IMG/VR virus record: IMGVR_UViG_3300030090_005839
Span: 1-23,849 of that record
Length of the DNA: 23,849 nt
Direction: 5' to 3' (one strand)
Source of the DNA: a virus
The stretch's first letter is position 1; every line of letters begins with the position of its first letter. This document shows positions 6,023-23,645 of this stretch, piece by piece. A model generated the notes under the pieces. The model saw nothing but the letters and a program-made list of their open reading frames with translations. It ran no database searches and was not told where the DNA came from. The position numbers and the translations under genes were made by a program.

Positions 6023-6970
6023 ATGTCAATTTTAGTTACTGGTAGCGCTGGCTTTCTTGCCAGCCACCTAATTCCACTTTTAGAAAAGCAAGAGCATACC
6101 GTTCATGGTATCGATATTAAGAATAATAAAAAGGATGACCTGTCGAAACTTGCTGCTGCTACAAGAATTGCTAAAGGGTTAAAAGGCCCAGAACTACTAT
6201 TCCATTTAGCGGGTGTGGGAAGTGATTCAGAGCAAGGTGCACTTGCATCAGGGTCAGCAGAAAATAATTTATTGGCTTATGTCAATATATTGCAGGCTGG
6301 CATAGAGCATGGCTTAAAACATGTATGTCTTGTAAGTGATGTCGCAGCGTATGGGACAAGCACTCGCAGCAGAGATGAAAACGCTGCTTTATTCCCACAT
6401 AGTGTGTATGGTTGTATGAAGGCAGCGATGGAGCATGTGACCGCTGCTATCTGTGGTGACAATCGCATTACTTACACTATTTGTCGTGTACACGATATTT
6501 ATGGGCCTGGATTTAGCCTTTCTTCCCCAGGCACCACACAAATAAATGAATGGATACGACGGGTTTCTAAGGGGGAATCATTAATCGTCACTAATGAGGG
6601 CCGCCAACTAAGGCAACCGACTTATGTGACTGATGCGGTTACGGGTATTGCTAATATAGGGCTACACCCTTTAGCTAAAAATAAAGTTTTGAACATAGGG
6701 CATAACCATGCTTATAGGATGATAGATGTCGTGAGGTTAATTGGTTTGCACTGTGGTGGGAAGGGTTACGAACTAGAGTATGCAGAAGGGTCTCCCCGTG
6801 AGATAATTGATACACGAGTAATGCACAGTCAAGTAGAGCAAGTTTTTAAACACCATTGTCGAACCACCTTTAATGTGGGTTTAGAGCAAACCTGGGATTG
6901 GATAAAAGAGTTTCATGGGAATACTAATAACTCCGTCAAGCAAAGGACGGCACAAAAAGCCAAAGTCTGA
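6023..6970 (+). CDS. NAD-dependent sugar epimerase/dehydratase (extended SDR)
   Basis: The 315-aa protein is a full-length extended short-chain dehydrogenase. The Rossmann signature TGSAGFLA gives G7, G10 and A13, and D31 follows in HGID for the NAD ribose. Next come HLAG (61-64), catalytic Ser105 in LVSD, and the Tyr129-x3-Lys133 pair in SVYGCMK. RVHDIYGPG (155-163) matches the usual R-x-x-N/D-x-YGP motif. Such enzymes act in the cytoplasm on nucleotide sugars (4-epimerases, dehydratases, reductases); substrate cannot be read here. AGAGGAAG lies just upstream of the ATG. The gene follows a terminator and overlaps the next gene by 56 bp. A metabolic enzyme between capsid and tail genes is unusual; it may alter host surface sugar or supply sugars for virion glycosylation (inference). 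Confidence 0.9.
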   Translation: MSILVTGSAGFLASHLIPLLEKQEHTVHGIDIKNNKKDDLSKLAAATRIAKGLKGPELLFHLAGVGSDSEQGALASGSAENNLLAYVNILQAGIEHGLKHVCLVSDVAAYGTSTRSRDENAALFPHSVYGCMKAAMEHVTAAICGDNRITYTICRVHDIYGPGFSLSSPGTTQINEWIRRVSKGESLIVTNEGRQLRQPTYVTDAVTGIANIGLHPLAKNKVLNIGHNHAYRMIDVVRLIGLHCGGKGYELEYAEGSPREIIDTRVMHSQVEQVFKHHCRTTFNVGLEQTWDWIKEFHGNTNNSVKQRTAQKAKV

Positions 6971-14437: not shown

Positions 14438-14671
14438 ATGCGGGCCAATGGATTCGGCCCGTTTCAGGATGCGGACCTAAGTACGAAGTATTGCTTTTTG
14501 TGCGGAAAAGAAATTAAGAACCTCCCTCCCTTTCTCGTAGAAATGACCTCAGTATCTACCAATGACGACAATAATGCTTTTGTTGGTGCTACATACCACC
14601 CTGAGTGTTATATAGAGAAGAACTCAATCGGATTCCACTACGAGGAATCTGGACATATCGACGAAGCCTAA
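14438..14671 (+). CDS. Small zinc-ribbon-like protein
   Basis: This 77-aa protein has CFLC near residues 18-21 and a later HPEC (C-x-x-C ... H-x-x-C), a typical treble-clef or zinc-ribbon ligand set. The rest is acidic. I place the start at ATG 14438; a GTG at 14435 overlaps the amidase stop and is also possible. AAGG lies upstream at workable spacing. It is the last plus-strand gene of the structural block, and its stop overlaps the end of the convergent resolvase gene by 4 bp. Role unknown; DNA binding or a lysis function are both possible. Confidence 0.65.
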   Translation: MRANGFGPFQDADLSTKYCFLCGKEIKNLPPFLVEMTSVSTNDDNNAFVGATYHPECYIEKNSIGFHYEESGHIDEA

Positions 14672-15075
14672 ACCTTTTCTGCTCTTCGGCGGACTATCTG
14701 CACTTCCATCAAGTCTGTCGGCCCATACCTTCGATCTGTTGTGAATTCGAACTTGGAGTCGTCTACCCCTAATGCCTCCTGAAGTGCGTCCCCGAGACAC
14801 TTAACAGCGTTGTCCACATCTGACCTTCTATATGTTGAGCGTTGCCAGGTGAGGAAGATGCGCAGGTATGATTCTCGTTTAGGCATTGGAACAGGAATAG
14901 CCCAGTCGCCGTTTTTCTTTATGGCCGATTCTACGATCTTTTTTACCTCGGCAATTTGAGCTTTGTACTCTTTCGTTCTAGCCAAGGCACAACGACTACC
15001 TTTGCGTATTAAGATCAGCCTTGCGTTACCCGACAGGGGCTTGCCAGGAATTGTGAACTCTAGCGTTTCGCTCAT
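14668..15075 (-). CDS. rusA-like: RusA-family Holliday junction resolvase
   Basis: This 135-aa protein starts FTIPGKPLSGNAR (7-19), the usual RusA opening. It carries the active-site pattern DVDNAVKCLGDAL: Asp86, Asp88, Asn89, Lys92 and Asp96, with further acidic residues at 105-106. RusA dimers cut four-way DNA junctions with Mg2+, resolving recombination or replication intermediates before packaging. I chose the ATG at 15075 because the family begins there and an AAGGGAA site precedes it. This leaves a 50-bp overlap with the end of the upstream gene. It is the last gene of its minus-strand block, ending tail-to-tail with the structural block. Confidence 0.88.
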   Translation of the reverse strand: MSETLEFTIPGKPLSGNARLILIRKGSRCALARTKEYKAQIAEVKKIVESAIKKNGDWAIPVPMPKRESYLRIFLTWQRSTYRRSDVDNAVKCLGDALQEALGVDDSKFEFTTDRRYGPTDLMEVQIVRRRAEKV

Positions 15076-15532
15076 GAGTCTGGTTCCCTTCAACTGTGTA
15101 GCTAATAGTGACCATGATACCACCTCGGAGCACAGCTTTGGGATCAAGCTCCTTCATTAAAGTGGGAGTGAGGTCTATAACCCTTCCGTGCATCCGCCAG
15201 TCAGGGTGAGTGTCGCCCGCCCACATAGCATCAAGACACAGGCACTGAACCTCGTTACCGTTATTGGCCCTGACAGTAATCCATTTACCTAGTGGAGAAT
15301 ACCTCCCCTGCCTGTTTTCCCACATCACTCTATGCAATGCACAAGACCGTTGCCAGTCATGGCCTACTGGATAACGTATTTCACCCCAGCTTTCCCGTAG
15401 CCTGGCGGTCTCCTCCCAGGGGTAGTAGGCATTGCCTACATGAGTGGCTAGTCCGTATTTCTCGTGATACGTCAGGCCATCTGGAGCTGTCCACACGATC
15501 CAGCCTAGCACCATAGCCATTAACCAGCCCAT
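15026..15532 (-). CDS. RlpA-like double-psi beta-barrel protein with N-terminal membrane/signal segment
   Basis: In this 168-aa protein, residues 1-15 (MGWLMAMVLGWIVWTA) are hydrophobic, a signal peptide or anchor lacking the usual basic start. Residues about 25-145 follow the order of RlpA-like double-psi barrels: GLATHVGNAYYPW near the start, a small-residue/His turn, GKWITVRANNGNEVQ, the Asp in CLDAMWAGD, then HGRVIDLTPTLMKEL and a closing GGIMVTISY. RlpA proteins cut glycan strands lacking stem peptides, so an exported wall-active role is suggested. Its place next to recombination genes is odd. Residue-level activity cannot be confirmed, as the family DRGP motif is not intact. GAGAGG lies upstream of the ATG. 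Confidence 0.6.
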   Translation of the reverse strand: MGWLMAMVLGWIVWTAPDGLTYHEKYGLATHVGNAYYPWEETARLRESWGEIRYPVGHDWQRSCALHRVMWENRQGRYSPLGKWITVRANNGNEVQCLCLDAMWAGDTHPDWRMHGRVIDLTPTLMKELDPKAVLRGGIMVTISYTVEGNQTHERNARVHNSWQAPVG

Positions 15533-17242: not shown

Positions 17243-18268
17243 CTACTTGTTATACAGCTTTGCCATTGCTTTCCAGTCCATGTCTGGGCTGAGTAGGTAT
17301 GGGTGCAGGTGGTCGTCAGTGCTGGCCTTGAGGATTACTGCTCCTTGCTGCATCTCTGAGGTTGTCCCATCAGTTTTTAACTGGTATGGGATTAGGTCGG
17401 GATTTGCAGACATTCCGCAGTCTATAGCGTAGTAGTAGCCTGAGATGTCACGGCCCATAGAATTTAGGTGTTGGTGTGCGACGATGGTGTTGCACCTTTT
17501 TTTGGTTGCTAGTTGCCTGGCAAAACTAAGGGGGGTGGCTCTGCCCCTACGAGGATGGGAAACCCTCCACTTATCCTTACCGTGAACAACTTCGACCCAC
17601 TCAAAATCGGTTAGTGTGAGTGAGCCTTTTTGCCACCACTGCTCCCACAGGTAATGGCCAATAGGTGAGGATTTCATTAGTCTGATTTCATGGTTCCCCT
17701 GCATATGGAACACTCGCTCGAAGGTGTTTTGTAACGCCTCCATAGCTTTACTGGATTCCAGCATTTCAATTTCAAAGCTATCTGTGTCATCCGCTGCTGT
17801 ATTTGCATGCGTACTAAACGCATCGTTGTTGATAAGGTCACCTGCAAGCAGCACATCTTTGACCCCCCAGGACAAAGCAAGATCAATGCATTTATTCATT
17901 AGTTCATGGTCTTGGGAAGGAATATGGCAGTCACTAAGAATCAACAACCCATCAGTTTTAATACGAGCACCAATCGTTCTGGGTGTTCGGGGAGATGGGG
18001 CTATCCTGGAAGCAGAGACCCTTCTGGCTTTAGGGGTGTCCTTTGCTATCGCAGCCAGCGTTGCTTGTCCCTCAGCAGCTCTTGCAGCAGAAGCCTCACG
18101 CCTCTTGTTGCGCCATTGATTGATACGCCTTGGCACATCAGTCTCTGCTAAGAGGCCTTGTCTTTTTAATTCCCCCCACTTGACCTGAAATTTAACAAAC
18201 GTATCTGTGGCTTCGTCGGCTGCTAAACGTGTTTCAGCCTCGTTCCAATGTTGATATATGCGTGGCAC
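17243..18268 (-). CDS. Calcineurin-like metallophosphoesterase
   Basis: The 341-aa protein has the catalytic domain from about residue 105. Family metal-binding motifs appear in order: SDCH (Asp113, His115), GDLINND (Asp144), GNHE (Asn192, His193) and AHQH (His265, His267), so all main ligand groups are present. It should hydrolyse phosphoesters with two metal ions; nuclease, phosphatase and cyclic nucleotide activities all occur in this family. The N-terminal 100 residues are helical, Arg- and Ala-rich, with a Pro/Ser/Arg linker (about 78-100), possibly a nucleic-acid-binding extension. The start is GTG, with GAGGAAG 4-5 nt upstream. Its place among recombination genes favours a nucleic-acid substrate, but this is inference. 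Confidence 0.85.
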   Translation of the reverse strand: MPRIYQHWNEAETRLAADEATDTFVKFQVKWGELKRQGLLAETDVPRRINQWRNKRREASAARAAEGQATLAAIAKDTPKARRVSASRIAPSPRTPRTIGARIKTDGLLILSDCHIPSQDHELMNKCIDLALSWGVKDVLLAGDLINNDAFSTHANTAADDTDSFEIEMLESSKAMEALQNTFERVFHMQGNHEIRLMKSSPIGHYLWEQWWQKGSLTLTDFEWVEVVHGKDKWRVSHPRRGRATPLSFARQLATKKRCNTIVAHQHLNSMGRDISGYYYAIDCGMSANPDLIPYQLKTDGTTSEMQQGAVILKASTDDHLHPYLLSPDMDWKAMAKLYNK

Positions 18269-18659: not shown

Positions 18660-18684
18660 AGTTGTCCAGAGGAAGGAGATTAAC

Positions 18685-19353
18685 TTGGGAACATGGATTC
18701 GATTTGACACCACTCTGACAAGGCATCCGAAGGTGATTCGTTTGGCAACCCAACTGGGTGTTCCAAGGCATCAGGCAATAGGGATTCTCTGTGAGTTATG
18801 GAGCTTTGCAGTTAACTACGCTGAAGATGGTGACCTAAGTCAGTTTAGTGACGCTGAGATTAGTTATGCGTTGGAGCAAAATGGAAACACTGTAAAAGCG
18901 TTAGTTGCTGCTGGGTTCATAGAGGAGAATGATAATGGGGGTAGACATCTGCACGACTGGCATGAATACCAAGGGGCTTTAATCCATCAGAGACTTCGCA
19001 ATAAAGAGAAACAAAAGCGGTATAGAGAGCGTAACCGTAACGTACCCGTTACGTTACGGGTACATGACGGGGCTACAAGACAAGACGAGACGGAACGAGA
19101 CGAAACTATAGAAAAAGAAAACGTGGCCACTGTGAAAAAGGCAACACGTATTACAGACAAGTTTGTGCAAAAAATGATTGATAGGTATAGGTCGCAAAAG
19201 CCTCAAGCTGTACAAGACGCTATTGCAGATGCTCGTGGGCATAGTAGTTATAAAAAGTGGTCTGATAAGCAGAGATATGTACAAAACTGGCTTCAAAGAA
19301 GGTGGCCTGAAGCTACAACTGACCTTAGTAATTGGGGAGATAGAGAATTATGA
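18685..19353 (+). CDS. Phage replication initiator-like protein (winged-helix N-domain)
   Basis: This 222-aa protein starts at TTG 18685 with a strong AGGAAGGAG; the frame is open further left only through the promoter. Residues about 1-105 are a predicted winged-helix domain (WIRFDTTLTRHPKVIRLATQ, AIGILCELWSFAVNY, VKALVAAGFIEE), as in DnaD/replisome-organiser proteins. A basic, low-complexity linker (about 106-150) includes the segment ATRQDETERDETIEKEN. The C-terminal part (about 155-215) is helical, with KKWSDKQRYVQNWLQRRW, likely for helicase loading. The next gene is DnaB-type helicase, overlapping by 4 bp, which supports an origin-binding/loader role. An origin-like repeat block sits in the linker DNA. 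The catalytic details of loading are inferred. Confidence 0.75.
   Translation: MGTWIRFDTTLTRHPKVIRLATQLGVPRHQAIGILCELWSFAVNYAEDGDLSQFSDAEISYALEQNGNTVKALVAAGFIEENDNGGRHLHDWHEYQGALIHQRLRNKEKQKRYRERNRNVPVTLRVHDGATRQDETERDETIEKENVATVKKATRITDKFVQKMIDRYRSQKPQAVQDAIADARGHSSYKKWSDKQRYVQNWLQRRWPEATTDLSNWGDREL
19030..19123 (+). other. Candidate replication origin inside the initiator gene
   Basis: Four copies of CGTAAC/GTTACG lie within 29 bp: 19030-19035 and 19036-19041 in one direction, 19048-19053 and 19053-19058 in the other. The outer part forms a perfect palindrome CCGTAACG (19035-19042) / CGTTACGG (19052-19059). At 19075-19104 follow six pentamer units (ACAAG, ACAAG, ACGAG, ACGGA, ACGAG, ACGAA), all purine-rich on one strand. 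An A-rich stretch (19103-19121) comes next. Binding sites followed by a strand-biased A-rich stretch inside an initiator gene is the layout of the lambda origin. Function is inferred. Confidence 0.45.
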
Positions 19354-20603
19354 ATGACCATGTAATAAATGAGGCGGAGAAGTCTTTATTGGGGGCACTC
19401 TTACTGAGGCCCGAAGAAATCCTGGAGGTAGCAGATAAATTACAGCCAGAGCAATTTAGCTCGGCCCAGCACAAAGCTATTTACTCTGCCATGTGCAGCC
19501 TTGATGTTGACGGGGAGGGAGTAGATCCGATTTCTATTGCAACTAAATTGGCAGGAAAGCAGGAGCTAGATGTAGCTGGTGGGGAGTCGTATGTGTCTGG
19601 GTTATTAAGTGACGCTCCAATGATGATAGACACAAAGCAATACATCAAAATTATTACGCAGGCTGCTGGGTTGAGGCACATTTTAAATGTAACAAGAAGG
19701 GCTACGGCTTCAGTAGAGCAGGGGGGTGAACCTGCTGACATAGCTGCAACGTTAGTTTCTGAGGTTTCAAAAGGAGCATTGGCAGAGCAAGATGAAGTGT
19801 GGCTTAAAGATGTGCTTTTAGAAATGTCTGACACAGGACATAAACCAATGGAGGGGACGCTAACCACAGGGATAACTCGGTTTGATAGCGAGTTGGGCGG
19901 TTGGCACCCTGGGGAGCTGATTCTTATTGCTGCCAGGACAAGTGTGGGCAAGACGGCCCTGGCTTTACAGCTAGCAAATCATATAGCTGGGTGTGACAAA
20001 GCACTACTTTTTGTGACACTAGAAATGAGTAACCGACAGTTAGCGGAGAGGTTATTGGCTTCTGAAACAGAGGTCTCTACTGCCTATTTTAGGAACCCTA
20101 ACGAACCCGACATGGATTTATCTAGGGTGGGGCCTGGTTACGCAAAGCTATACGAGTACCCGTTCATACTGACAGGAACAAGAGAAATAAACAGGCTTGC
20201 TGCCCAGGCAAAAAGATTAAAGGCACAGCATGATATTGCTGCGATTTTTGTAGACTATGTTCAGCTCATGCGCTCCACGGAAAAGACAAATAGAAGACAC
20301 GAGGAAGTGGGCCTTATTTCAAATGGGCTAAAAGCAATAGCGAACAACTTAGAGATCCCAGTTATAGCCTGTACACAGGCAAACAGGGATGCAGCTAACG
20401 AACCGCTACAGCTTCACCACCTCCGAGAGTCAGGCTCCCTTGAAATGGATGCGGATATTGTGCTTCTGCTACACGAGGATGGAAATGACCATGTCAAAGT
20501 TAAGGTTGCTAAAAACCGCAACGGACGGGCAGGGTCAGTCGTTACATTCCGTTTCAACAAGGCTTATGGAATTTTTACTCATGTTCCAACGGCTGACTTC
20601 TAA
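19350..20603 (+). CDS. dnaB-like: DnaB-type replicative DNA helicase
   Basis: This 417-aa protein would be a hexameric ATP-driven helicase opening the fork and recruiting primase. The N-terminal domain (about 5-145) has the DnaB signature EKSLLGALLLRPE and the following helices. The RecA-like domain shows Walker A ARTSVGKT (195-202, Lys201), the catalytic Glu225 in TLEMS, Walker B IFVDYVQLM (299-307, Asp302), then CTQANRDA and RESGSLEMDAD as later motifs. At 417 aa it is slightly shorter than bacterial DnaB (about 470). The ATG overlaps the stop of the initiator gene by 4 bp. No primase is seen in this window. Confidence 0.93.
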   Translation: MNDHVINEAEKSLLGALLLRPEEILEVADKLQPEQFSSAQHKAIYSAMCSLDVDGEGVDPISIATKLAGKQELDVAGGESYVSGLLSDAPMMIDTKQYIKIITQAAGLRHILNVTRRATASVEQGGEPADIAATLVSEVSKGALAEQDEVWLKDVLLEMSDTGHKPMEGTLTTGITRFDSELGGWHPGELILIAARTSVGKTALALQLANHIAGCDKALLFVTLEMSNRQLAERLLASETEVSTAYFRNPNEPDMDLSRVGPGYAKLYEYPFILTGTREINRLAAQAKRLKAQHDIAAIFVDYVQLMRSTEKTNRRHEEVGLISNGLKAIANNLEIPVIACTQANRDAANEPLQLHHLRESGSLEMDADIVLLLHEDGNDHVKVKVAKNRNGRAGSVVTFRFNKAYGIFTHVPTADF

Positions 20604-21224: not shown

Positions 21225-21605
21225 TTAAAATGGTTGATCGTCAAATGGCAGCTCATCGTCTCTTCTTTTTTGTGGCTGGGATCTGGTGCGGGATCGCTCA
21301 GGCCCACCATGCCATTTTGTGCGATCAGATACTACATTGATATCAGTAGCTTCTGTCCCATCATTTTTGACCCAAGAATTAAGGAATGCCTCTCCAGAAA
21401 CGGTTATCTCGGCTCCTTTTTTTAGGTGGTTATAAATCGCTACACCTGGCTTTCCATAGACAGCCACTTGAAACCAGGTGGTTTCATCTTTTCTGTTTAC
21501 CCCCACAGAAAAACGGCACAACTTTGCACCACTACTAGTGTCGTAAAGTTTTGGATCGGTGCCCATGTTGCCTGATATTGTGATTGTCGCTAAACCGTCA
21601 GCCAT
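21225..21605 (-). CDS. ssb: Single-stranded DNA-binding protein
   Basis: This 126-aa protein has one OB-fold domain (about 1-95): ATITISGNMGTDPKL, CRFSVGVNRKD, WFQVAVYGKPG and GAEITVSGEAF are the standard strands of bacterial-type SSB. A basic linker (about 98-112) follows, and the tail DDELPFDDQPF is the acidic tip that SSB uses to bind partner proteins. It coats exposed single strands during replication and recombination. The ATG at 21605 is chosen because SSB proteins begin there and AGG-rich DNA precedes it; the frame runs on upstream through the leader, where it loses SSB likeness. Confidence 0.93.
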   Translation of the reverse strand: MADGLATITISGNMGTDPKLYDTSSGAKLCRFSVGVNRKDETTWFQVAVYGKPGVAIYNHLKKGAEITVSGEAFLNSWVKNDGTEATDINVVSDRTKWHGGPERSRTRSQPQKRRDDELPFDDQPF

Positions 21606-21641
21606 TATCTTACCTGTCCTTCTGTATGTATGGCTTCCAAG

Positions 21642-21671
21642 GGAGAGGGGGTGTGGGAGACTCCCCTCTCC
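21642..21671 (-). promoter_or_regulatory. Stem-loop in the ssb leader
   Basis: GGAGAGGGG (21642-21650) and CCCCTCTCC (21663-21671) are perfect inverse copies around a 12-nt loop, 37-66 bp upstream of the ssb ATG on its transcript. No T-run follows in either direction, so it is more likely a translational or stability element than a terminator. Confidence 0.45.
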
Positions 21672-21737
21672 GCAGGAATAATGAAAGATAGAAATGGGTG
21701 AATTACCAGGAAGGCGGTGCATTCACTCTCGCTTTCT

Positions 21738-22265: not shown

Positions 22266-22538
22266 TTAGGGCATTCCTACAGTAGCATCTTCGTGTAGTG
22301 CTAATAACATAACCAAACTGAAAACCCATCGAACAATTGGCTCGAATGCAATAGCTGAAAGTATGCACACTGTGATGCCGAACAAACCATATGCAAACCA
22401 GTAAAGTGTTCTCCAAATCTTGATAATTACGTATTCCGAGGTGCTAACAACCTCCACAGCTCTAAGAGGCGTTTCCGCCTTCAAAGTACCTATGTGGTGA
22501 ATCTTGAGCCTTCTCTTATTGCTGATTAGTTTTGGCAT
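22266..22538 (-). CDS. Small membrane protein with two hydrophobic segments
   Basis: In this 90-aa protein, residues 1-40 are soluble and basic (LISNKRRLKIHHIG). Two hydrophobic segments follow: about residues 45-62 (LYWFAYGLFGITVCILSA) and 67-80 (PIVRWVFSLVMLLA). AAAGG sits 7 nt before the ATG. The start overlaps the end of the methyltransferase frame by 23 bp but begins 3 bp after the stop of the alternative frame in the same gene. Function unknown. Confidence 0.65.
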   Translation of the reverse strand: MPKLISNKRRLKIHHIGTLKAETPLRAVEVVSTSEYVIIKIWRTLYWFAYGLFGITVCILSAIAFEPIVRWVFSLVMLLALHEDATVGMP

Positions 22539-23313
22539 TATTTAGCCTTTCTCTAAGTTCTTGCCATGCCTTTGCTGCCACTGCTGGTACGACTGCGTTT
22601 CCAAGGGCTGCAATCCTGTCCACCCTATGGGGAATCCCATTAGCCATTCGACAAATTGCGGGTTCAAGGCTCGCTTCGATGCGTAAAACTTTTGCCCAAG
22701 CATCGGCGTCCTTGGGGCTTGGCGGCCAAGTAGGCAGTTCGTCGGCTCCTTTAGTGACGGATTGAACCCGTCCTTGTGATCTCGGCTTGTCGGTGTTGCC
22801 CATAGCTTTGTCGGGACTGGTGTGGGCATATATGAAAAGTCGCTCCCGCTTATGTGGCGAGCCAACCTCCTGCGCCGAATAGATTCCTGCCTCAACCGTG
22901 TAGCCCATTGCGCAAAGGTCTCGCCATACTGATTCAAATCCGATCCGAAGATGGTTGGCCACGTTTTCGAAGAAGCAGAATCTGGGTTGTACTTCTCCGA
23001 TGATTCGCCGAATATCAGGCCAGAGGTGTCTGGGGTCATCTTCCCCTTTCCGACTGCCTGCGCTGGAAAATGGCTGGCACGGGTATCCACCAGTGATGCA
23101 ATCCACGACGCCACGCCACGGCTTGCCATTGAAGGTTTTAACATCGCTCCATATTGGAGCATCGTCGAGATAACCTTCTTGAATACGGGCGAGCGTCGCA
23201 GCGACGGGGAAGGCCTCTCTCTCCACGTAACAGCATGTGCGAGCGTTTGGCTCAGCGAGTCGCAACCCGAGTTCGATGCCTCCGATCCCACTACATAGAG
23301 CCAAGACATTCAT
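22516..23313 (-). CDS. DNA (cytosine-5) methyltransferase
   Basis: In this 265-aa enzyme, ordered C5-MTase motifs are visible: motif I LALCSGIGGIELGL (4-17), motif IV GYPCQPFS with catalytic Cys79, motif VI FENV (115-118, Glu116), motif VIII QEVGSPHKRERLF (148-160), a short target-recognition region (about 160-225), then motif X-like ALGNAVVPAVAA. It would transfer methyl groups from S-adenosylmethionine to cytosines in a specific sequence, probably to protect phage DNA; no nuclease partner is seen. I chose ATG 23313 because it overlaps the previous TGA (ATGA) and matches the family start; a second in-frame ATG 10 codons earlier has no spaced ribosome site. The region looks richer in G+C than its neighbours. 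A second frame overlaps nearly the whole gene. Confidence 0.93.
   Translation of the reverse strand: MNVLALCSGIGGIELGLRLAEPNARTCCYVEREAFPVAATLARIQEGYLDDAPIWSDVKTFNGKPWRGVVDCITGGYPCQPFSSAGSRKGEDDPRHLWPDIRRIIGEVQPRFCFFENVANHLRIGFESVWRDLCAMGYTVEAGIYSAQEVGSPHKRERLFIYAHTSPDKAMGNTDKPRSQGRVQSVTKGADELPTWPPSPKDADAWAKVLRIEASLEPAICRMANGIPHRVDRIAALGNAVVPAVAAKAWQELRERLNNAKTNQQ
22542..23309 (-). CDS. Possible overprinted 255-aa protein within the methyltransferase gene
   Basis: An alternative minus-strand frame opens at ATG 23309, 4 bp after the methyltransferase ATG, and stays open for 255 codons to TAA at 22544-22542. Its stop is 3 bp before the ATG of the next gene, a cleaner junction than the methyltransferase offers. 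The product contains WATPTSRDHKDG and NPQFVEWLMGFPIGWTGL, followed by PLETQSYQQWQQRH, patterns I recall in proteins annotated in phages as separate genes. In the two frames the last parts align: ALGNAVVPAVAA opposite PLETQSYQQWQQRH. It could be a real overlapping gene, or an alternative translation that databases carry along with the enzyme. I cannot tell which without expression or codon-constraint data. Confidence 0.4.
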   Translation of the reverse strand: MSWLYVVGSEASNSGCDSLSQTLAHAVTWRERPSPSLRRSPVFKKVISTMLQYGAMLKPSMASRGVASWIASLVDTRASHFPAQAVGKGKMTPDTSGLIFGESSEKYNPDSASSKTWPTIFGSDLNQYGETFAQWATRLRQESIRRRRLARHISGSDFSYMPTPVPTKLWATPTSRDHKDGFNPSLKEPTNCLLGRQAPRTPMLGQKFYASKRALNPQFVEWLMGFPIGWTGLQPLETQSYQQWQQRHGKNLEKG

Positions 23314-23645
23314 TTTGCCTTCGATCGGAAACTGTCCAGCCATACCTCACGGTCGTATGGTGTATGGATTGTTCCTAGGTAATTCTCCCAATCATTCCCA
23401 GTGCAATTATCTGGGCATGACATAGAGCAATCATGCTCTATGTCCTTTCCCAATAGCACTCTGTCTACTATCCAATTAGGAGCCAGATCCCCCCATTTAT
23501 CCACACAATCCTTGGCCTGCTCAAAGGTGAGTGCCTCTAAATTGGTAGGAGGTAAATACACTGCTGCGTTTGTTCTCTCCTTCTTTCTCATCAATTCTAA
23601 AATGCGTTTTGTTAGTTGCTTTGCGTTTTTAATGTCGCCGTCCAT
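23310..23645 (-). CDS. Hypothetical acidic/basic mixed protein
   Basis: In this 111-aa protein, the first 25 residues are a basic helix (KNAKQLTKRILELMRKKER). The middle is acidic with Trp (CVDKWGDLAPNWIVDRVLL), and the Cys-containing part CSMSCPDNC (about 73-81) could bind a metal. AGGAG lies at good distance before the ATG, which overlaps the upstream gene by 1 bp (TAATG). It ends in an ATGA junction with the methyltransferase. The CSMSC region is encoded by a perfect 11-bp inverted repeat (23419-23444). Function unknown. Confidence 0.65.
   Translation of the reverse strand: MDGDIKNAKQLTKRILELMRKKERTNAAVYLPPTNLEALTFEQAKDCVDKWGDLAPNWIVDRVLLGKDIEHDCSMSCPDNCTGNDWENYLGTIHTPYDREVWLDSFRSKAK
23419..23444. 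repeat. Perfect 11-bp inverted repeat inside a gene
   Basis: GACATAGAGCA (23419-23429) and TGCTCTATGTC (23434-23444) are exact inverse copies with a 4-bp centre ATCA. It lies inside the hypothetical gene upstream of the methyltransferase and could form a strong hairpin in its mRNA or be a protein-binding site. Confidence 0.75.

Follow-up and report, generated by a model that had tools for sequence, protein, structure and literature searches.

The DNA at 19030-19123 of the window is very probably a theta-type origin of replication, placed in the DNA that encodes the linker of its own initiator and carrying an unwinding element specific to that initiator, with a mechanism of the kind proposed below. 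Its function as an origin is deduced from the sequence, and the best reading of its kind is the lambda/RepA_N type. The window is the entire virus record (23,849 bases), and there is no genome beyond the record ends. An earlier note on this DNA had drawn attention to an origin-like layout inside the initiator gene. That layout is real, and it is far wider among phages than was noticed at first. The features are as follows:

18685-19353, plus strand: replication initiator gene, 222 amino acids (PHROG 9474 profile over residues 20-170, E 4.8e-31; AlphaFold2 model)
19009-19026, plus strand: codons of the basic helix K109-Q110-K111-R112-Y113-R114, in which X1 (Q110) and X4 (Y113) track iteron type
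19030-19035, plus strand: iteron 1, CGTAAC (from sequence)
19036-19041, plus strand: iteron 2, CGTAAC (from sequence)
19048-19053, minus strand: iteron 3, CGTAAC (from sequence)
19053-19058, minus strand: iteron 4, CGTAAC, sharing one base with iteron 3 (from sequence)
19072-19111, plus strand: pentamer tract, NNNA[C/G] eight times, the proposed unwinding element (from sequence and the register of relatives)
19107-19123, plus strand: A-rich DNA at the distal end of the tract (from sequence), a putative site of first melting or helicase entry
19350-20603, plus strand: DnaB-type replicative helicase gene (Pfam DnaB_C 4.5e-60 and DnaB 5.4e-24; PHROG 19)

The four hexamers lie in opposing pairs, with spacings of 6, 12, and 5, and they are exactly where the earlier note placed them (19030-19058). 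This is the single place in the window with four copies of one hexamer in 29 bp, and none of 200 dinucleotide shuffles of the window matched it. The six pentamers that the note listed at 19075-19104 (ACAAG ACAAG ACGAG ACGGA ACGAG ACGAA) are also correctly located, and A-rich DNA does follow them, to about 19123. The best lag-5 stretch of the contig begins at 19075, with 21/27 matches; none of 200 shuffles reached 21, and their maximum was 19. In the register conserved among relatives, 19072-19111 reads GCTAC AAGAC AAGAC GAGAC GGAAC GAGAC GAAAC TATAG. The note called the pentamers purine-rich, which is only one flavour of this longer NNNA[C/G] tract.

The initiator ORF has a TTG start preceded by AAGGAG at 18673-18678, and the start of the helicase gene overlaps its end by 4 bases. 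Pfam Phage_rep_org_N was matched below threshold only. We modelled the window protein with AlphaFold2, using 52 relatives as further input. The model has a confident winged-helix-like domain (residues 1-118) with a long helix at its end, a low-confidence linker (about 119-149), and a helical C-terminal domain (150-211); pLDDT is under 50 for residues 133-155. The iterons and tract encode residues 116-147, which are mostly this linker between two folded domains, as the earlier note had supposed. Nearby on the minus strand are genes for a RusA-like resolvase (14668-15147), a metallophosphoesterase-like protein (17243-18268; a match at the Pfam threshold, divergent from the initiator operon), and SSB (21225-21722).

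The kinship of the initiator was less distinct. The family profile weakly matched DnaD-like C-terminal domains of solved structures (2zc2, E 0.0014), and 15/53 relatives matched Pfam DnaB_2. RepA_N plasmid initiators led the structural list for the N-terminal part, with a low Z of only about 5. A Foldseek search of the PDB gave no significant match, the Pfam scan did not contain the RepA_N domain, and neither Pfam nor the PHROGs matched the window protein to the lambda O family. Some relatives (L281, L238, and L293) have an N-terminal domain of PHROG 9474 joined to a C-terminal one that matches the lambda O-like phrog_345 and phrog_678. Therefore, such relatives have exchanged domains on either side of the linker.

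A single-sequence search of viral contigs found no close relatives, and so we used alignments as queries. Relatives were chosen by protein similarity alone: ten annotated phages and two groups of 80 viral contigs each, one of the window type and the other of the epsilon15 type. For an independent set, bacterial and MAG assemblies supplied 80 loci, of which 64 were left once short or duplicate genes had been removed. The linkers of the relatives are not conserved as protein, but a DNA plan is common to most members of all sets. Short motifs in both orientations come first, then a five-base tandem tract, and then, often, A-rich DNA. The opening pentamer of the tract, GCTAC, occurs in the window and in many window-type relatives. 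The element has a recurring anatomy, is conserved at the DNA level, and keeps its position and polarity, and its iterons correlate with a helix of the initiator. In two cyanophage relatives (L006 and L008), a six-base tract (CCAGAG; CCTAAG/CCTATG) replaces the five-base one.

The five-base period was measured in 102 nonredundant genes. Against codon-order shuffles, the mean Z at lag 5 was 3.3 for the window type and 5.7 for the epsilon15 type; against synonymous shuffles it was 2.3 and 4.2, respectively. Lags 10 and 15, which are multiples of 5, and lag 11 also stood out. The mean Z at lags 3, 6, and 9 was below 1 (at lag 3, 0.65 for the window type and 0.83 for the epsilon15 type). In the 64 genes of the independent set, the mean Z at lag 5 was 3.7. 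The best lag-5 stretch fell within the initiator in 42/52, 35/35, and 52/61 loci, a total of 129/148, compared with 28 expected by length. In all four complete genomes (Harrison, Olaya, Lagaffe, and epsilon15), the tract of the initiator had the top lag-5 score, and the runner-up was 3 to 5 matches lower.

A clear tract was present in 139 of the 170 protein-selected genes and wanting in the other 31. In those 139, 94% of pentamers are NNNA[C/G] in a single phase, with A at position 4 in 95% and C or G at position 5 in 97%. The strand of the tract is fixed relative to the gene, the T[C/G] version accounting for 2%. Its start falls in each of the three codon frames (in 62, 31, and 46 genes). The encoded peptides are diverse. 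The window's tract (AAGAC/GAGAC/GGAAC) is translated as TRQDETERDET, a CTAAC/CGTAC/CAAAC tract as PNLTIPNQT, an AAGAG tract as REEKRREE (also REEKRREEK), a TAGAG/TAGAC tract as SRVDKSRV, and a GTTAG/GTAAG tract as VRLGKVRLGK.

Codon choice is constrained as well. Our first test of arginine codons was circular for genes that had been found by an AGAGA string, and it was redone on protein-chosen genes. In 37 epsilon15-type genes picked by peptide, the arginines of REEKRRE are encoded by AGA or AGG in 111/111 cases, compared with 135/720 elsewhere. Among 39 genes of the REEKRRE type, the same residue has the same codon in 84% of comparisons within the element; for the N-terminal domain the figure is 54%, and for the C-terminal part it is 44%. 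The arginine codon bias and the codon identity within the element indicate that selection acts on the DNA.

The iteron sequence varies by phage (GTAAC, GTCAC, CGTGC, or GTCCGC). The top hexamer upstream of the tract has at least four copies in 155/301 genes, compared with 17/1505 codon-shuffled versions. Such clusters are one sided: at least four iteron copies lie upstream of the tract in 86/199 genes and downstream in 9/199. Among 177 nonredundant genes with at least three copies, same-strand copies occupy at least two reading frames in 154, and both orientations occur in 128. The lag-11 signal of the window type (mean Z 3.3) fits the iteron spacing. In many relatives (L025, L035, L013, L016, and others), the iterons are spaced at 11 bp, about one helical turn. 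The earlier note proposed that the linker sequence is shaped by DNA sites, and suggested a search for repeats that are conserved despite protein drift. The outcome of that search was clearly positive: iterons in several frames, a period of five in most relatives, and high codon identity together support its proposal.

An R-X1-X2-X3-X4-[R/K] segment sits directly after the winged helix. By counts that shared descent inflates and that have exceptions (including L417, L437, and L468), X4 is aromatic or His in 11/11 GTAAC members of the window's family, compared with 0/21 members of other classes, and in 11/15 GTAAC members of the epsilon15 family, compared with 0/50. By the same kind of count, K at X1 with S at X4 is found in every one of the 11 window-family members with GTCAC iterons, X1 = K pairs with TCCGC in 44/44, and X1 = M is typical of CGTGC. 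In the independent set, GTAAC accompanies 7/11 aromatic-X4 cases, compared with 1/30 others (p = 1e-4). The window has Q110 at X1 and Y113 at X4, which is the GTAAC pattern, and its own CGTAAC iterons agree. The association is seen separately in two families. When X1 and X4 alone were used to predict the iteron class across families, success was 0.25, compared with 0.12 by chance, a modest gain, one reason being that the commonest class is almost without an equivalent in the other family. A mutual-information analysis of the entire N-terminal domain recovered only family membership, and we dropped it. The strongest indication in this analysis that the encoded protein would read these iterons is the correlation between helix and iterons.

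We also took a blind approach and scanned 2.9 million viral contigs for the 18-base string AGAGAAGAGAAGAGAAGA, with no protein information. It occurred in at least 120 stretches. Among the matches listed, 113/120 were inside ORFs with 100 or more residues, and the purine strand was the coding one in 106. PHROG 9474 alone fitted 80/106 proteins from the listed matches, and other initiator families were among the remainder. We then took the ten proteins that looked least initiator-like by eye. Replication or primosome families account for six of them. Of the other four, two had no match, one fitted families of unknown function only, and the last is a ribonucleotide reductase, plainly a hit by chance. 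A looser scan, with (CNNAC)x7, retrieved initiators and DnaD-like loaders, plus many arrays outside long ORFs. Therefore, this pattern alone is not specific. Long CNNAC arrays in some contigs (L179, L185, and L233), with up to 40 overlapping matches, lie outside long ORFs and appear unrelated to initiators.

We propose the following mechanism. The initiator would bind the four CGTAAC iterons through its winged helix and the basic helix around Q110 and Y113, as the covariation suggests. On the model of TrfA and the DnaA-trios, the bound array might then spread one way onto the adjacent NNNA[C/G] pentamers, with each pentamer probably serving as one contact unit on one DNA strand, and the duplex would open at the tract and its A-rich end. 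The C-terminal domain would pass the exposed strand to the phage's DnaB-type helicase, which is encoded by the next gene. The linker peptide would be largely a by-product of the DNA element.

An origin within an initiator gene is already known. The lambda origin has iterons in the middle of gene O and a one-sided A-rich unwinding stretch, as do those of Stx phages, and extra iteron copies lengthen the O linker (PMC6022878, PMC7466680). In-frame deletions in the AT-rich part of the lambda origin abolish its function, although the O protein still complements (PMC6022878), and O binds iterons and single strands alike (PMC7466680). The earlier note called the window's layout lambda-like. This describes the arrangement, with iterons inside the initiator gene and A-rich DNA after them, but it does not extend to the protein, which Pfam does not match to lambda O and which belongs to a different family, or to the iterons. 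Those of lambda are 18-bp hyphenated palindromes, whereas the window has CGTAAC hexamers, two of which overlap. The A-rich tract of the lambda O gene has no clear period of five, in contrast to the window's. Lambda uses gene P as its loader, whereas the window encodes its own DnaB-type helicase.

Other systems resemble different parts of the element. Rep of pSK41 uses a DnaD-like winged-helix domain to bind four boxes located centrally in rep, and its linker is origin encoded and dispensable in trans (PMC5703833). The sites are thus in the middle of the initiator gene in both this RepA_N plasmid and the window, but the iterons differ, and the pSK41 review describes no pentamer tract (PMC5703833). 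TrfA binds iterons and one strand of the adjacent repeats at the 13-mers of RK2 oriV (PMC4081077), and B. subtilis oriC has DnaA-trios and a DnaD recognition element, short one-strand repeats beside initiator boxes (PMC10201434). The conserved A of each pentamer recalls the DnaA-trio, but the period is 5 in the window's tract, 13 in the TrfA 13-mers, and 3 in the trio. No involvement of DnaA is known for the window's tract, unlike DnaA-trios, and engagement of one strand is suggested here by analogy. We examined rep of TP901-1 as a control with a known origin. The initiator of this phage is DnaD-like, and the DNA for its linker contains repeats, after which come GCTAC, as in the window, and then AC-rich DNA. 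However, its repeats are 14-bp direct repeats, unlike those of the window, and we did not find a strong lag-5 tract in the gene. Its linker-DNA repeats are reportedly essential for replication.

An origin is not the only possible explanation for these sites. They might be an operator through which the initiator or another regulator controls its own operon, with the origin elsewhere. Small inverted sites close to the start of an operon would suit a regulator, and autoregulation by initiators is common. However, the sites are about 350 bp into the gene, far from its start, and always come with a one-sided pentamer tract, and the equivalent position is the origin in lambda and pSK41 (PMC6022878, PMC5703833). 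We consider an operator alone unlikely, and it is possible that the iterons serve as both origin and operator. The pentamer tract might instead act in the mRNA, its five-base period read by a ring-shaped RNA binder or by a translation or antitermination factor. TRAP is a ring-shaped RNA-binding protein that acts on NAG repeats, such proteins would naturally suit a five-base period, and the strand of the tract is fixed relative to the gene. Against this, the tract goes together with iterons of a DNA type, which occur in both orientations, its C-rich, purine, and GTTAG versions have only A[C/G] in common, and no ring-shaped RNA binder of the TRAP sort was identified. A role in mRNA is quite unlikely in our judgment.

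It might also be argued that a flexible, low-complexity linker simply accumulates neutral products of slippage, which readily yields tandem repeats, or that selection acts on linker charge; the linker is indeed predicted to be disordered. However, mismatches among the pentamers of one tract are frequent at positions 2 and 3 (46% and 39%) and rare at positions 4 and 5 (9% and 12%), and 99/139 tracts have at least three different pentamers. Variable positions beside near-fixed ones count against simple slippage. Charge fares no better, because the tract peptides have from 0 to 10 charged residues of 10. Synonymous choice is constrained, and the period is five rather than arbitrary. This explanation is very improbable. 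An origin in the linker-coding DNA is the reading that we prefer. Cumulative GC skew, which the earlier note had suggested as a check, did not support an origin. In the window, the local shift (at about 18.5 kb) falls where gene direction changes and was therefore set aside, and none of four complete relatives has cumulative-skew extremes at the initiator gene.

The open-access literature that we searched does not describe the pentamer rule, its occurrence across initiators with different iterons and hosts, or the helix code; key older reviews were outside that scope. The chances are about even that these proteins form a very large, host-diverse group of phage and prophage initiators with a new strand-specific NNNA[C/G] unwinding element, one pentamer per contact, and iterons set by the X1/X4 helix code. 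If so, the charged or PNxT-rich linkers would be the translation of a DNA element, and sequences such as REEKRREEK and PNLTIPNQT would be explained as shadows of DNA. Few origins of tailed phages have been mapped. The pentamer and iteron rule would give the position and polarity of the origin for many phages with such initiators, and sequence by itself would suffice to read off both origin and iteron type for thousands of uncultured phages. Initiator specificity would become predictable from the helix code, and the group would offer a testable case of an initiator that opens DNA by a five-base unit.

Elsewhere in the window, a gene for an NAD-dependent epimerase/dehydratase (6023-6970, plus strand; Pfam 3.9e-34) lies amid structural genes, downstream of the capsid gene. 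A C5-cytosine methyltransferase gene is at 22516-23343 on the minus strand (Pfam 5.5e-32), and a 255-codon open frame (22542-23309) overlaps it in another frame of the same strand.
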